Virus record (IMG/VR): IMGVR_UViG_3300010885_005470
Span: 1-62,231 of that record
From: a virus
Strand: one strand, 5' to 3'
Length of the DNA stretch: 62,231 bases
Shown: one piece after another, positions 32,792 through 41,885 of the stretch
Numbering within the stretch: position 1 is the stretch's first letter
Layout: the number at the start of each line of letters is the position of its first letter
Position numbers and translations under genes: made by a program
Notes under the pieces: generated by a model
What the model saw: only the letters and a program-made list of their open reading frames with translations
What the model was told of the DNA's origin: nothing
The model's database searches: none

Positions 32792-33727
32792 TTATATCCA
32801 AGATTTATATGAATCGTGTGACATCTCACCCAACGGCACAACCTCTACATCAAACGGCTTCTCTTGACGATAGGCTTCCTTTTGAATCTTAGGAATCAAC
32901 CCAGCTTCGCTATACTCATATGTTCTTGTAGTCCAATTCCAACGATTTAGTTTTTGCTTATAGTTAGCAACTGCGGTTAGCCATGACTCAGGAATCTCAT
33001 CGGGATTCTTTAGCGTTACAAAGTCTTTCCAATGCGTATCTAATACCGAACCCCACGAGTTACCTTTAGGCTCAACTAACGGAAACATTACCTTAGCGTA
33101 GTCAATGAAAGTCTTGAGCTTCTCACGAATCTCTTTAGTCTTGGTGCGGTTTAACTTATGCTTGACCTCACGATACACATGAAGCGGTGTCCATGTTGTT
33201 CCACCCTTAGGTCGATAGAAAGTAACATCGCCTTTATCTAGCGTGTAATAGTTACAAGCATGGGGGTTAATTTCGGTAGGGGCTTTTACAACTAAGTAGG
33301 TAGTCCCACGATGTTTAGTTAAGCACATTCCTACTGGCACATTGTAGTCGTAGAAATAATAAACCGATGGGCTCATAAACCCAAAGCGGTTGCGGTGAAT
33401 GATGATAGACTCTACCTCACCTTCTTGCTTGAGAGTGATTGCTCGAGGTCTATAATCGCTCTCGTTTTTATCCTGCATAATCTGTGCATCATTCCAGTTC
33501 CAATGTGTGCATGATAAATAATACTCAGTATCGCTAACCTTAACGATGCGTTCATGCGCTCTGTTGCGGTCATGCACACCAAGGGGTCTGACATCTAACG
33601 CTTTGCGTTTACCAATCAAGGGCTTGATACTCTCGTATCGTTCGACTGCCTTAGCAAAGTCTGTTCTCTTACCATTCTGACGTTGAATATCTTCAGGGGT
33701 TCTTGCGTTCCAATTTCCATAACTCAT
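32792..33727 (-). CDS. Hypothetical 311-residue early protein under palindrome a
   Basis: A soluble basic protein with aromatic, Asn/Trp-rich stretches ('CTHWNWNDAQIMQDKN', 'YYFYDYNVPVGMCL'). I do not recognise the family. Its start codon lies 23 bases downstream of palindrome a and it opens the block running to at least 31646. The leader is similar to that of the MoxR gene (shared 'AATACAAAC' and a GGAAGTAAAT or GGTAGTAAAT SD stretch). Confidence 0.6.
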   Translation of the reverse strand: MSYGNWNARTPEDIQRQNGKRTDFAKAVERYESIKPLIGKRKALDVRPLGVHDRNRAHERIVKVSDTEYYLSCTHWNWNDAQIMQDKNESDYRPRAITLKQEGEVESIIIHRNRFGFMSPSVYYFYDYNVPVGMCLTKHRGTTYLVVKAPTEINPHACNYYTLDKGDVTFYRPKGGTTWTPLHVYREVKHKLNRTKTKEIREKLKTFIDYAKVMFPLVEPKGNSWGSVLDTHWKDFVTLKNPDEIPESWLTAVANYKQKLNRWNWTTRTYEYSEAGLIPKIQKEAYRQEKPFDVEVVPLGEMSHDSYKSWI

Positions 33728-33749: not shown

Positions 33750-33769
33750 ATTCGTTACATGTAACGATT
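33750..33769 (-). promoter_or_regulatory. Palindrome a, CGTTAC-AT-GTAACG
   Basis: First of eight copies. The 14-base core is fully palindromic and the flanked form AATCGTTACNNGTAACGAAT reads on the minus strand. It lies between the stop of the next gene upstream and the start of 32792-33727. Best read as a repressor or activator operator; an RNA hairpin in the leader is the alternative. Confidence 0.75.
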
Positions 33770-36844: not shown

Positions 36845-36864
36845 ATTCGTTACAGGTAACGATT
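36845..36864 (-). promoter_or_regulatory. Palindrome b, CGTTAC-NN-GTAACG
   Basis: Second copy, between the DUF3150-like stop and the MoxR start. With copy a it shares extended flanks ('TTTGTATTCGTTACA' on the plus strand), so these two form a closer subgroup placed at the same distance from a start codon. Confidence 0.75.
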
Positions 36865-37815: not shown

Positions 37816-37835
37816 AATCGTTACCAGTAACGAAT
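37816..37835 (+). promoter_or_regulatory. Palindrome c within a hairpin followed by T-tract
   Basis: Third copy. Here the arms extend to a 12-base inverted repeat with one mismatch (37813-37838 including flanks). On the minus strand it is followed by TTTTTTCTTTTTATTTT. It lies downstream of the promoter at 37864 and before the DUF3150-like gene, so it could act as an attenuator/terminator as well as a protein-binding site. Confidence 0.7.
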
Positions 37836-37863
37836 ACCCCTGAACAACTACAACTAATACTAT

Positions 37864-37892
37864 ATTATAACAGCTTATAGACTCCAATGCAA
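37864..37892 (-). promoter_or_regulatory. Sigma70-like promoter for DUF3150-MoxR-VWA unit
   Basis: On the minus strand TTGCAT, 17 bases, then a perfect TATAAT. The expected start of transcription is near 37857, which puts palindrome c at about +25 to +40 and the DUF3150-like start codon at about +79. Confidence 0.7.
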
Positions 37893-38068
37893 GCCATCGT
37901 AAATACTCCGACCCACAATGCACCAATCAACGCACCGCCTATAAATTCCAGCGTTAGTTTGGCATCACTCTTAAATGTCTGAATTGCACAGGCATACTTA
38001 GCATCACGCAATGATTCGCTTAATGTTCGTGCTACTGGCTGTAAGTTTTTTTCCATTGGTGTTCTCAT
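37865..38068 (-). CDS. Single-pass membrane protein (67 residues)
   Basis: It begins 'MRTPMEKNLQPVARTLSESL'. The C-terminal 26 residues 'FIGGALIGALWVGVFTMACI' onward form a membrane helix. GGGAG lies 7 bases before the ATG at 38068. Its last codons overlap the promoter at 37864, the end of the upstream operon. Function unknown. Confidence 0.6.
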   Translation of the reverse strand: MRTPMEKNLQPVARTLSESLRDAKYACAIQTFKSDAKLTLEFIGGALIGALWVGVFTMACIGVYKLL

Positions 38069-38069
38069 T

Positions 38070-38210
38070 TCATTTCTCCCAAAGATGTTTTGGTGCGGTG
38101 ACAAGACTAGGGATTACCCGCATATCGTCAATCCTATGTTGTTGCGGGTGTGGTGCTGGCTTGTATAGCTTGTCTGTAAACACAGGCACAGTTGCTTTAG
38201 TTTTCTTCAT
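38070..38210 (-). CDS. Microprotein (46 residues)
   Basis: The product starts 'MKKTKATVPVFTDKLYKPAP' and is basic and Pro-rich. It is joined to the previous gene by ATGA and ends one base before the next start. Function unknown. Confidence 0.55.
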   Translation of the reverse strand: MKKTKATVPVFTDKLYKPAPHPQQHRIDDMRVIPSLVTAPKHLWEK

Positions 38211-38446
38211 TTGATTCTCCCAATGTAGTTGCGGTTAATAAAATCTTCATACGACTCGTCATACTTCCTTACTCTTAGATACTCTCCAAACATATAGTGC
38301 AACGGATTGCGCTCCGTTACCAAGTCCACCTTCTCTTGCCTTGTGGCTAAGGTTTTGATTAGCGTGGTAATACTGTTCTCATTAACCTTAGCGTTTTCTT
38401 TTACAGTCATACGCTTGCGGTCATCTTTTAGTATATGAATACTCAT
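38207..38446 (-). CDS. Hypothetical basic protein (79 residues)
   Basis: It contains 'NENSITTLIKTLATRQEKVD' and 'YDESYEDFINRNYIGRIK'. Four-base overlaps on both sides. Function unknown. Confidence 0.55.
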   Translation of the reverse strand: MSIHILKDDRKRMTVKENAKVNENSITTLIKTLATRQEKVDLVTERNPLHYMFGEYLRVRKYDESYEDFINRNYIGRIK

Positions 38447-38589
38447 TTTGATTCCTTATGGGCTGGTGATTTTATTCCGAGTCGTTTGTGCATTGCATAC
38501 ACTCGCTTGACGAAATCGACATATTGTTTTTCGGTTTTAGGTGTCCAAGGCACTAGCTTTTTGCTTGGGTCAAATATATACGGGTTCAT
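38443..38589 (-). CDS. Microprotein (48 residues)
   Basis: The product starts 'MNPYIFDPSKKLVPWTPKTE' and is basic. ATGA overlaps at both ends support it. Function unknown. Confidence 0.55.
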   Translation of the reverse strand: MNPYIFDPSKKLVPWTPKTEKQYVDFVKRVYAMHKRLGIKSPAHKESK

Positions 38590-38732
38590 TTCGATTCTTC
38601 CTTTAATTTATACTGCTCCACAATATGTTCTAAAATGCCTGACCTTGCACCACCATGCCATTGCAAATCTAAGATAGCATCTTCAATTTCTAGTATGTCT
38701 TGTTTAGTTAGGGTTACTTGTATTGTTATCAT
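38586..38732 (-). CDS. Microprotein (48 residues)
   Basis: The product starts 'MITIQVTLTKQDILEIEDAI', a strand followed by helices. It is joined to its neighbours by 4-base overlaps. Function unknown. Confidence 0.55.
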   Translation of the reverse strand: MITIQVTLTKQDILEIEDAILDLQWHGGARSGILEHIVEQYKLKEESK

Positions 38733-38854
38733 TTTGATTCCTTTACATAGCAAGCTAAACCTTGCTCGTTGCGATACTCATGCCCAAACTCATCAAGCAC
38801 TTTCCCATTTTCATCAACAGTTAAACCTCGTTCTAATACCTCATCTATACTCAC
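38729..38854 (-). CDS. Microprotein, GTG start (41 residues)
   Basis: An ATG start at 38944 would overlap the zinc-ribbon gene by 94 bases. A GTG at 38854 instead gives a GTGA overlap with that gene's stop, the same coupling used throughout this operon. The product contains 'SIDEVLERGLTVDENGKVLD'. Function unknown. Confidence 0.5.
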   Translation of the reverse strand: MSIDEVLERGLTVDENGKVLDEFGHEYRNEQGLACYVKESK

Positions 38855-39051
38855 TTTACTATCCCGCCTTTCTGATTGACGCCGATTAAGTCGGCTTGGT
38901 TTGTCACCAGCATATAGTTCGACTTGTGCATAGGCACAACGCAACGAACCACTCGATTGGCAATCTCGTCACCACAAGGCAAACATACCTTATAGCCCAA
39001 GTCCCAACGCTTCTTTGCTACCTTATCATCACACTTTCTGCATCGCATCAT
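38851..39051 (-). CDS. Zinc-ribbon protein (66 residues)
   Basis: 'MRCRKCDDKVAKKRWDLGYK' then 'VCLPCGDE' gives two CxxC pairs, and 'VPMHKSNYMLVTN' follows. This is a familiar small phage early protein with a zinc ribbon; function not established. GGAGG lies 7 bases before the first ATG. Confidence 0.7.
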   Translation of the reverse strand: MMRCRKCDDKVAKKRWDLGYKVCLPCGDEIANRVVRCVVPMHKSNYMLVTNQADLIGVNQKGGIVK

Positions 39052-39136
39052 CTATTAACCTCCATATAAAGTTACCTACACAAATACCCGCCAAGAATGA
39101 CATGACGTGCCAAAACCAATACTCAAACTTATCCAT
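39029..39136 (-). CDS. Membrane microprotein (35 residues)
   Basis: The product is 'MDKFEYWFWHVMSFLAGICV' followed by 'GNFIWRLIDDAMQKV', with one likely membrane helix. It overlaps the previous gene by eight bases and the zinc-ribbon gene by 23. Function unknown. Confidence 0.5.
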   Translation of the reverse strand: MDKFEYWFWHVMSFLAGICVGNFIWRLIDDAMQKV

Positions 39137-39308
39137 CTTTTTCTCCTTGTAGTGCAGTTAATTTTGCTTTAGCGATTGTTATCGTGGTGTATGCTTGGGC
39201 TAAGTCAGGGGACACCCCCGCAATACCTAAGTTATCTAGCTTTTTCTCCATATTTGCAATGATGTTTAACAGCTCGGTGATGCGTTCACCCTTGTAATGT
39301 GTTGCCAT
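39129..39308 (-). CDS. Small helical protein (59 residues), first gene of an operon
   Basis: It starts 'MATHYKGERITELLNIIANM', a coiled coil followed by 'DLAQAYTTITIAKAKLTAL'. AAGGAG lies 5 bases before the ATG. It is the first gene downstream of palindrome d and of the 500-base non-coding stretch, so it opens the operon running to about 37865. Confidence 0.6.
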   Translation of the reverse strand: MATHYKGERITELLNIIANMEKKLDNLGIAGVSPDLAQAYTTITIAKAKLTALQGEKDG

Positions 39309-39336
39309 GTGTTCTCCTTAATAAACTCAGTTAGGC

Positions 39337-39356
39337 ACTCGTTACCTGTAACGAAT
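39337..39356 (+). promoter_or_regulatory. Palindrome d, CGTTAC-CT-GTAACG
   Basis: Fourth copy, 32 bases upstream of the start codon of 39129-39308 and downstream of a possible promoter at 39377. Flanks ACT and AAT on the plus strand. Confidence 0.75.
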
Positions 39357-39376
39357 AGCAAGTGCCTTGTGAATCT

Positions 39377-39406
39377 ACTATATGCTGGGTTATTAAATTA
39401 TTTCGA
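39377..39406 (-). promoter_or_regulatory. Possible weak promoter upstream of palindrome d
   Basis: Minus strand TCGAAA, 18 bases, TATAGT. Only the -10 is good. If used, transcription would start near 39370 and palindrome d would lie at about +17 to +30. Confidence 0.35.
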
Positions 39407-39792
39407 CCTCTGCTATTTTCTCGCAGTCCTGTTCGGGGTTAAGGTCAGGGCAGTAAATATATAAGTGGCATAAAGATACGAGGCGATGGTGCATAGCGCA
39501 TCACATCAACCTGAAAAAATCTCCATATATAAATACTGCGTAGGGCTACTGTTCGGTTTTCGTAGTTTTAGTTTGTTGGCTCTAACACGCTTGCTGTTTT
39601 TATGGCGACTCGCAGTTTTGAGTCTTTCTCGTGCTTCTTACTTGTAGTGGTCTGTTATCCCACAGCCTTAGCTTGGAAACTACTGCAACCTATGCCTACC
39701 CTACACCTAGTGCATTGTTACTAGGCATTTTGCAAATTGTAAAAGAGGAGTGGCTAATTGTGTCGGGGAGGGTACTGTTACTTTCAGGATGC

Positions 39793-39812
39793 AATCGTTA
39801 CTTGTAACGAAT
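39793..39812 (+). promoter_or_regulatory. Palindrome e, CGTTAC-TT-GTAACG
   Basis: Fifth copy, about 40 bases downstream of the -10 of the strong promoter at 39851, so within the transcribed leader. This position fits a roadblock or stoperator better than classical promoter occlusion. Confidence 0.75.
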
Positions 39813-39850
39813 ACCCTAGCCCTATACATACTTCTACCACTTATAACTAC

Positions 39851-39879
39851 ATTATACTCTCTTATACTATGTTTGTCAA
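39851..39879 (-). promoter_or_regulatory. Consensus sigma70 promoter (leftward)
   Basis: Minus strand TTGACA, 17 bases, TATAAT: a perfect match to both consensus hexamers at ideal spacing. Start expected near 39844. The spacer is almost the same as in the promoter at 41766 (24 of 29 positions identical overall), so they form a promoter family. It should be a strong early promoter. Confidence 0.85.
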
Positions 39880-40182
39880 GTCATCTTTTGGTGTGCGCTT
39901 ATAGGTTTTCTGGCTAGGTCTTATCAGCAAGCGACCCCTGTTGCCTACCCTGTATCTCGCTTCTACTGTTTTTACTTGTAAGTTATATTTCTCCGCAATT
40001 TCTTTGAGTGACAGACATACCCCCTCAATCTCTATTCGCATCGGCTCACGCTTTGGCTTGGCTGGTTTAGATGGCTTAGTTTCTTTGAGTTTTATATCAG
40101 GCAGTTTCACCACTATGCGCTTTGGTTTACGCTTTAATTGGTTGCGTAGTTCTTTGATTGCTTTGATGATGTTGAGTTCCAT
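39862..40182 (-). CDS. HTH DNA-binding protein
   Basis: This 106-residue protein has a Lys/Pro-rich N-terminal half and a C-terminal 'SLKEIAEKYNLQVKTVEARY' segment with a classic helix-turn-helix pattern. The start at 40182 has GGGG 6 bases upstream; an ATG four codons earlier lies too close to its SD. It is encoded directly after the ribbon-helix-helix gene, between palindromes e and f, so both are candidates for the protein that reads those sites (inference). Confidence 0.65.
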   Translation of the reverse strand: MELNIIKAIKELRNQLKRKPKRIVVKLPDIKLKETKPSKPAKPKREPMRIEIEGVCLSLKEIAEKYNLQVKTVEARYRVGNRGRLLIRPSQKTYKRTPKDDLTNIV

Positions 40183-40184
40183 GA

Positions 40185-40478
40185 TTAACCCCATGCCTCG
40201 TTATAGTCATCTTCTATTTTCTTACGCTGTGCAGGGGACATGGCTTGGAGCTCTTGGTCGTATGCACTTAATACTTTGCCCCTTGCTTGGGGTTGTGGTG
40301 TGCTACCTAATAATGCGTTGGGTGCTTCGTCAATAAGATACTGTGCAAGGACATTTCTAGCCATTGTTGAAACCCCCATGTATTTGGACTGGGCTAGGGC
40401 ATTTAGTTGGTCAAGCAGTTTTTTGGGTAGGCGAATTGCGAGGATTTCCTCGTTTTTTGGCTTATTTGTGTTAGACAT
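40185..40478 (-). CDS. Ribbon-helix-helix (CopG/Arc-type) regulator
   Basis: In this 97-residue protein, residues 10-50 'EEILAIRLPKKLLDQLNALA' and 'GVSTMARNVLAQYL' form the strand-helix-helix of CopG/MetJ-type repressors, which bind palindromic operators as dimers. The C-terminal 45 residues are a polar tail. Palindrome f lies 104 bases upstream of its start, fitting autoregulation. AGGA lies about 7 bases before the ATG. Confidence 0.75.
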   Translation of the reverse strand: MSNTNKPKNEEILAIRLPKKLLDQLNALAQSKYMGVSTMARNVLAQYLIDEAPNALLGSTPQPQARGKVLSAYDQELQAMSPAQRKKIEDDYNEAWG

Positions 40479-40581: not shown

Positions 40582-40601
40582 AATCGTTACGGGTAACGAA
40601 T
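40582..40601 (+). promoter_or_regulatory. Palindrome f, CGTTAC-GG-GTAACG
   Basis: Sixth copy, upstream of the ribbon-helix-helix gene. A TATACT element near 40539 could be the -10 of a promoter for that gene, but no good -35 was found. Confidence 0.75.
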
Positions 40602-41098: not shown

Positions 41099-41127
41099 AA
41101 AAAAACCCCACCTGATTCGGTGGGGTT
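41099..41127 (-). terminator. Terminator after 41147-41710
   Basis: Minus strand: a 9-bp stem AACCCCACC/GGTGGGGTT with a 6-base loop, then a run of T (41103-41099). It lies about 20 bases past the stop codon, so the single gene is insulated from the genes further left. Confidence 0.9.
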
Positions 41128-41128
41128 G

Positions 41129-41148
41129 ATTCGTTACTGGTAACGATT
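41129..41148 (-). promoter_or_regulatory. Palindrome g, CGTTAC-TG-GTAACG
   Basis: Seventh copy, squeezed between the stop codon of 41147-41710 and its terminator. A site at the 3' end of a transcription unit cannot control its own initiation, which again suggests a stoperator, RNA or other architectural role. Confidence 0.75.
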
Positions 41149-41710
41149 AGGCTTCTAAACATTCCTCTGCTACTAGGATAGCTTTAATCTCTGCCTGTGT
41201 TGCTTCACTAAGCGATTCGAATTCACTATGGTTATATAAGGCGACTAGAACATTAGCGAATAAAACTTCTGCCTTTTCGCCTTGCGCCTTGTCTGCCTTG
41301 TTACCCTTGCGCCCATCTTTAGACTTATTCATTCCCTTAGCTTTCTCGCCTGTGTTTACTACCTTGCGGAAAATCTCATAGTAGGCTTGCTTGGTAGTAT
41401 CTGCCAATTCGCCCAATGAATCTAAAAACGCCTGTTTAATCGCCTTTGTATTGGCGTCTTGCTTGCGCCCGTCTGCCAATACATAGCTACTAGCTTTAAT
41501 GCTTAATGCTTTAGCGTTAAAGTTTTCCAATGCTTTCTTTTTTAATTCGATAGCACTTTCAATCATCGAATCTTGCTTACCAATAGTCAGGGCACTTGCG
41601 CCCGCTTCAGTAGCGAACCCGATAATATCTAGCAGAGTTACTACTGAAGTCTGCTTAACCTTAGCACCTGTGCTAGTAGTAGTTACTGTTGTTTTGGTTG
41701 ATGTAGTCAT
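41147..41710 (-). CDS. Hypothetical monocistronic early protein (187 residues)
   Basis: It begins with a Thr/Ser-rich stretch, then a helical body ('FATEAGASALTIGKQDSMIE', 'AFLDSLGELADTTKQAYYEI') and a basic 'KSKDGRKGNKADKAQGEK' segment. No family recognised. It has its own near-consensus promoter (41766), leader hairpin and terminator, and two palindromes around it. That suggests strong immediate-early expression: a host-takeover or regulatory protein (inference). Confidence 0.65.
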   Translation of the reverse strand: MTTSTKTTVTTTSTGAKVKQTSVVTLLDIIGFATEAGASALTIGKQDSMIESAIELKKKALENFNAKALSIKASSYVLADGRKQDANTKAIKQAFLDSLGELADTTKQAYYEIFRKVVNTGEKAKGMNKSKDGRKGNKADKAQGEKAEVLFANVLVALYNHSEFESLSEATQAEIKAILVAEECLEA

Positions 41711-41765: not shown

Positions 41766-41794
41766 ACTATACTCCCGTATTCTAGGTTTGTCAA
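41766..41794 (-). promoter_or_regulatory. Near-consensus sigma70 promoter (leftward)
   Basis: Minus strand TTGACA, 17 bases, TATAGT. Transcription should start near 41759, giving a leader of about 50 bases with a GGGC-AATTCC-GCCC hairpin and AAAGG SD before the ATG at 41710. It is the sister of the promoter at 39851. Confidence 0.8.
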
Positions 41795-41865: not shown

Positions 41866-41885
41866 ATTCGTTACGGGTAACGATT
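41866..41885 (-). promoter_or_regulatory. Palindrome h, CGTTAC-GG-GTAACG
   Basis: Eighth copy, about 75 bases upstream of the -35 at 41794, in the divergent control region between the leftward and rightward arms. Confidence 0.75.

Follow-up and report, generated by a model that had tools for sequence, protein, structure and literature searches.

Dispersed palindromes behind promoters of a freshwater phage and their covariation with a predicted helix-turn-helix segment of the first early gene product

The window analyzed here, a virus record of 62,231 nt in full (about 62 kb), is the genome of a freshwater phage and carries eight exact copies of the gapped palindrome TCGTTACNNGTAACGA, all of them among the leftward early genes. 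In this phage and its relatives, a palindrome lies behind most near-consensus promoters and overlaps none of them, and its sequence changes together with a predicted helix-turn-helix (HTH) segment in the product of the first early gene. We consider it probable that the palindromes are dispersed DNA operators of a repressor encoded by this gene, which would regulate itself and act in a roadblock or stoperator-like manner. The matched change of the palindromes and the DNA-reading part looks like an immunity switch or an early shut-off switch.

Palindrome copies and promoter geometry

With up to three mismatches allowed, TCGTTACNNGTAACGA has 11 matches in the window against 1.9 expected, a number reached in no shuffle. 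All eight exact copies (Table 1) are non-coding, compared with 19% of the window's 16-mers (p ~1.5e-6), and the sites are near-perfect palindromes whose leftover flank asymmetry is seen in both orientations. Searches of Rfam and of phage DNA with the window element gave no match, a scan of viral contigs for the exact palindrome returned 112 stretches, nearly all single-copy and at about chance level, and the repeats listed for the window include no further family located at gene starts. In terms of the large terminase, the nearest match to the window phage is Phage DSL-LC04 (59%), followed by pelagiphage HTVC027P (52%); no repeated palindrome was seen in the 50 kb examined in the terminase-sharing DSL-LC04, HTVC027P, and 023Pt_psg01.

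Table 1. Features of the early region of the window (., no strand assigned)
Feature	Coordinates	Strand	Match or score	Context
Palindrome copy a	33752..33767	.	exact	abuts stop codon, before gene 32792-33727
Palindrome copy b	36847..36862	.	exact	between stop codon of DUF3150-like gene and MoxR-type ATPase gene
Palindrome copy c	37818..37833	.	exact	30 bp past -10
-10 of leader promoter of DUF3150-like gene	37864..37869	-	TATAAT; weak -35s, 9/12 overall in window	
Palindrome copy d	39339..39354	.	exact	22 bp past -10 of weak promoter-like site
Weak promoter-like site	39377..39406	-	TATAGT at 39382-39377; 9/12, not significant alone	before copy d
boxA-like element	39737..39748	-	CCTCTTTTACAA (relatives GCTCTTTAACAA); sequence match	in leader past copy e
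Palindrome copy e	39795..39810	.	exact	40 bp past end of -10
Sigma-70 promoter	39851..39879	-	TTGACA-17-TATAAT; 12/12	promoter of conserved non-coding leader; conserved in L113/L116 and other relatives
Palindrome copy f	40584..40599	.	exact	ribbon-helix-helix gene start 106 bp downstream
Intrinsic terminator	41104..41127	-	9-bp stem and T run	after copy g
Palindrome copy g	41131..41146	.	exact	abuts stop codon of first early gene
First early gene	41147..41710	-	187 aa	proposed HTH regulator; predicted HTH at residues 86-120; flanked by copies h and g
First early gene promoter	41766..41794	-	TTGACA-17-TATAGT; 11/12	
Palindrome copy h	41868..41883	.	exact	~75 bp upstream of -35 of first early gene

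An earlier, sequence-only reading had placed the palindromes downstream of promoters, beginning 20-45 bases past the -10. The measured distances for copies c, d, and e agree with this range, whereas copy h, which precedes the promoter of the first gene, departs from the general statement. The same reading's placement of copy g between a stop codon (41147) and a following terminator (41127-41104) is confirmed. The window region contains 19 promoter-like sites compared with 23.7 in shuffles, so the two 9/12 promoters preceding c and d are not significant alone; among the promoters before c, d, and e, only that before e is convincing by itself. The promoter before c is rescued by its orthologue in the relatives L113 and L116, TTGACT-17-TATAAT, which scores 11/12 and is followed by an aligned palindrome with aligned flanks. 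The perfect promoter before e heads a conserved non-coding leader of ~440 nt (39360-39851, minus strand) that includes the boxA-like element.

With the MoxR-type ATPase adjoining the sites as the query, 80 related viral loci were gathered. Most of those holding the region have a set of their own, made up of identical gapped palindromes that are different in sequence and located in the same slots, with 4 to 12 copies per phage in the window phage and its relatives. Each phage type has a palindrome sequence of its own, and the clade studied includes at least nine types; in orthologous leaders (the window compared with L113/L116, and L183 compared with L188) the promoter and flanks align and the arms differ. 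We counted promoter geometry in 29 representative palindrome-bearing loci with 199 sites and 62 near-consensus sigma-70 promoters (≥11/12). A promoter of this quality, the -10 of which ends 25-60 bp ahead of the palindrome, precedes 44 of the 199 sites, compared with 2.5 (maximum 8) by random placement, and 52 of the 62 promoters have a palindrome 20-80 bp past the -10. The distance from the -10 to the palindrome is most commonly 38-41 bp, with a spread of 28 to 79 bp, and no site among the 199 overlaps a ≥11/12 promoter. The claim that the palindromes sit past the promoter and not over it thus holds, the position being kept across relatives with many different palindrome sequences, and these counts support the roadblock or stoperator half of the mechanism proposed in the sequence-only reading.

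The site before the first gene does not follow this geometry in every phage: it is upstream of that gene's promoter in the window, L118, L120, L135, and L140, which is one caveat to the operator reading. Copy h may serve the late genes, since a weak rightward TATATA ends 37 bp away from it. As a rightward promoter behind copy h, this weak TATATA was set aside, and no stronger rightward candidate is present there.

Not all related phages have a single set of sites. One clade (e.g. L121-L133) is without palindromes and without the DUF3150-like gene and has other repeats; both features are likewise missing from L136-L147, and many of the phages in these two groups have short-spaced GCACCAnnnTGGTGC repeats instead. 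Two palindrome families per phage are present in L161, L163, and L166, sometimes adjoining in one leader as a TAGTAT type followed by an AGTTAG type ~30 bp apart. A loose relative, Synechococcus phage MinM2 (L196), has 18 exact copies of GTTCAGnCTGAAC, or 28 at one mismatch, mostly intergenic and just ahead of ribosome sites; its first gene, MM2_92, also has copies on both sides.

The first early gene and palindrome specificity

Among genes, one tracks the palindrome, and it is the first early gene. The correlation between HTH distance and palindrome distance is 0.80 (0.60 as a partial correlation given the ATPase), a value that none of 2000 permutations reached. Correlations with palindrome distance are 0.53 for the N-terminal part of the protein, 0.31 for the C-terminal part, and 0.18 for the neighboring DUF3150-like protein; the covariation of the N-terminal part is a second caveat to the operator reading. 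The HTH tree, built on just 38 columns, requires seven changes of palindrome type, which equals the minimum, compared with nine on the tree of the C-terminal part and ten on that of the neighboring ATPase. For the TTCCCAC type alone, the counts are one change on the HTH tree and four on each of the other two.

The sequence of the predicted HTH follows the palindrome type. All TTCCCAC phages have KKTAQNYLSL and TCCCTAT phages have PKTAQNYYEL, KTAQNY being common to both of these CCC-holding types, and TTCATA phages have GTxxNYL[ST]TF (xGTxxNYL[ST]TF in most TTCATA types), with the exception of L164, which has ASTAQKVYLPTF. The phages L183 and L188 have ATPases that are 98% identical, yet their HTHs and palindromes differ; L175 and L190, with ATPases of 79% identity, have the same HTH and the same palindromes. 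The first genes at the two ends of contig G012 (L177) are not the same: their C-terminal halves are nearly identical and their HTHs differ, and each cassette is self-consistent, pairing its own HTH with matching flanking sites. This double cassette may be a duplication, a recombinant, or an assembly artefact in which two strains were joined.

The first-gene protein has no Pfam or PHROG match, no tblastn match in 50,697 phage records, and, in a Foldseek search with its AF2 model, no known fold at E ≤ 0.001; as the sole query, the window first gene retrieved no relatives. AF2 predicts two helices and a short turn in the palindrome-tracking segment (two models, pLDDT ~90). As neither a known family nor a known fold at E ≤ 0.001 was found, the HTH label derives from the AF2 models together with the covariation, and the protein apparently represents a new helix-turn-helix family. 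In the distant clades L155, L157, L159, L165, and L181, the first gene is also flanked by the phage's own palindromes, and hhalign detected no homology between these first genes and the window family, a further caveat to the operator reading.

In the operator reading, the first-gene protein probably binds as a dimer, with one subunit on each arm. The commonest distance of 38-41 bp places the center of the palindrome near +38 to +40 of early transcripts if transcription starts ~7 nt past the -10. With the protein bound there, or in the interval from a stop codon to the ribosome site of the following gene, access of RNA polymerase to the promoter would be unhindered, and the protein would instead stop polymerase at about promoter escape or block elongation. 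Sites flank the first early gene in the window phage and many of its relatives, so the gene is probably autoregulated. Such a protein would either set the timing of early shut-off or keep silent a co-infecting phage whose site set matches.

It is unlikely that the first-gene protein binds the palindromes and, without repression, activates, antiterminates, or organizes DNA. The tight distance from the -10 (38-41 bp in most cases) could reflect contact with RNA polymerase, but distances of 28 to 79 bp exceed the range of such contact, and promoterless intergenic sites exist too. Also in favor of an activator are the position of copy h between divergent early and late genes and the match of the L116 first-gene protein to a late-promoter regulator profile (phrog_254, E 0.0075), although this match is weak and falls outside the HTH.

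DNA or RNA, and other readers of the sites

The palindromes could alternatively be hairpins in leader and intergenic RNA that are recognized by an RNA-binding regulator, as in nut/boxB-like antitermination or translational control. Nearly all copies are in presumably transcribed DNA, either near +30 or in the gap separating a stop codon from a ribosome site, boxA is present in one leader, and every copy folds as a stem and tetraloop; the C-NN-G tetraloop described in the sequence-only reading is indeed predicted, on a stem of 6 bp rather than 5 bp. However, at four of the window's eight copies the predicted hairpin amounts to just -4 kcal/mol. Within one phage, the two spacer (loop) bases vary freely and the arms are constant. 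A comparison of relatives for compensatory change, which had been suggested as a means of separating DNA from RNA conservation, speaks against RNA conservation: across 1290 pair cells, the mismatched arm pairs are 9 G-U, 10 A-C, and 31 others, with no compensated changes. The free spacer, the absence of any excess of G-U over A-C, and the zero count of compensated changes are what a DNA dyad fits, and the arms covary with the predicted HTH. These results disfavor the RNA-binding regulator that had been raised as an alternative, and we regard it as decidedly unlikely.

The boxA-like element, which is of the rrn type and lies in the leader behind the strong promoter, is best considered apart from the palindrome. 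In 13 of 30 loci, GCTCTTTAACAA is found with 0-1 mismatch, and none is found on the other strand; the window element has two mismatches. The order is palindrome then boxA in the window clade and boxA then palindrome in L167, L175, and L188. Because the order changes with the clade, boxA appears to be a separate RNA module, a point that also speaks against the hairpin reading. The sequence of this leader suggests NusB/S10 antitermination of phage early transcription.

That some other phage protein reads the sites is very improbable. The ribbon-helix-helix protein (40185-40478) has an Arc-like profile match (phrog_582, E 0.0058) and copy f upstream of its gene, and a 110-aa protein (39862-40194) is a second candidate; but their homologues were found in just 10 and 8 loci, respectively, none of them in the TTCCCAC/TTCATA clade even though that clade shares the site system, and both were ruled out as regulators by this too narrow distribution. 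A role as replication, partition, or packaging signals is extremely improbable, for although dispersed identical palindromes look like iterons or centromeres, the sites are restricted to early intergenic and leader slots and tied to promoters, and no ParA was found.

Comparison with known systems and phage lifestyle

The operator arrangement proposed here resembles the conserved inverted repeats (CIR) of Streptomyces phage phiC31, palindromes dispersed through the intergenic parts of the early region, close to early promoters, that serve as repressor sites; this likeness is one of general description, and the host, protein, and sequence differ. Lambda-type operators are likewise palindromic sites for a dimeric HTH repressor, as is proposed here, but they overlap the -35 and -10, which 0 of our 199 sites do. 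Compared with a boxB/nut hairpin, the palindromes lack a conserved loop, compensating changes in pairing, and a fixed palindrome-boxA order.

The cluster A mycobacteriophages (L5, Bxb1, TipsytheTRex) have many short repressor sites, called stoperators, in intergenic gaps, with a consensus that varies by phage and tracks the repressor, and a block to elongation has been proposed (PMC6550527, PMC9283540). The L5 sites are 13-bp, asymmetric, and oriented, and number 20-30 per genome, and the protein that binds them is a monomer carrying two DNA-binding domains (PMC9283540). As in cluster A, one site recurs in several short gaps between genes (8 of 8 non-coding in the window), and the site consensus tracks the repressor, here a proposed one. 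In contrast to the L5 sites, those of the window are palindromic, eight in number, and spaced at a set distance from the promoters they follow; they lack the asymmetry and the single orientation relative to transcription of the cluster A sites. The first-gene protein is unrelated to the L5-type repressor as far as PHROG, Pfam, tblastn, and fold comparisons extend. From sequence, we describe the arrangement as a putative stoperator-like dispersed operator system; membership in the stoperator family is not supported.

Cluster K mycobacteriophages have extended start-associated sequences (ESAS), 17-bp inverted repeats near gene starts with a consensus that likewise varies by phage and spacers of mostly 4-13 bp, alongside an asymmetric start-associated sequence (SAS) of 13 bp located at the ribosome site (PMC3203893). 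Unlike the SAS/ESAS pairs, the window palindromes have no 13-bp start-associated repeat beside them among the repeats listed, and the passages describing ESAS give no promoter geometry or cognate protein (PMC3203893).

Unlike the temperate cluster A phages, the phages studied here yielded no integrase, resolvase, or ParA (PF00589, PF00239, PF13614) in ten contigs of ~60-66 kb; lysogeny may proceed by another route. We tentatively raise superinfection immunity without integration as a possibility that is on balance doubtful: type-specific operators and the first-gene repressor would silence co-infectors of the same type, and selection for escape would drive coordinated switching of HTH and operators between near-identical phages. 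If the phages are truly non-integrating, specificity groups of the immunity type would exist outside classical temperate phages. The system offers what is apparently a new family of DNA-binding proteins whose recognition code can be read, with at least nine specificities, and natural specificity swaps between phages whose neighboring ATPases are 98% identical, making testable how a repressor and a whole operator set change specificity together. A terminase search of bacterial genomes returned one 9-kb contig (L272) in an alphaproteobacterial bin, which may be a hint of the host class or a stray phage contig; it carries seven copies of the TTTCGTACnGTACGAAA palindrome.
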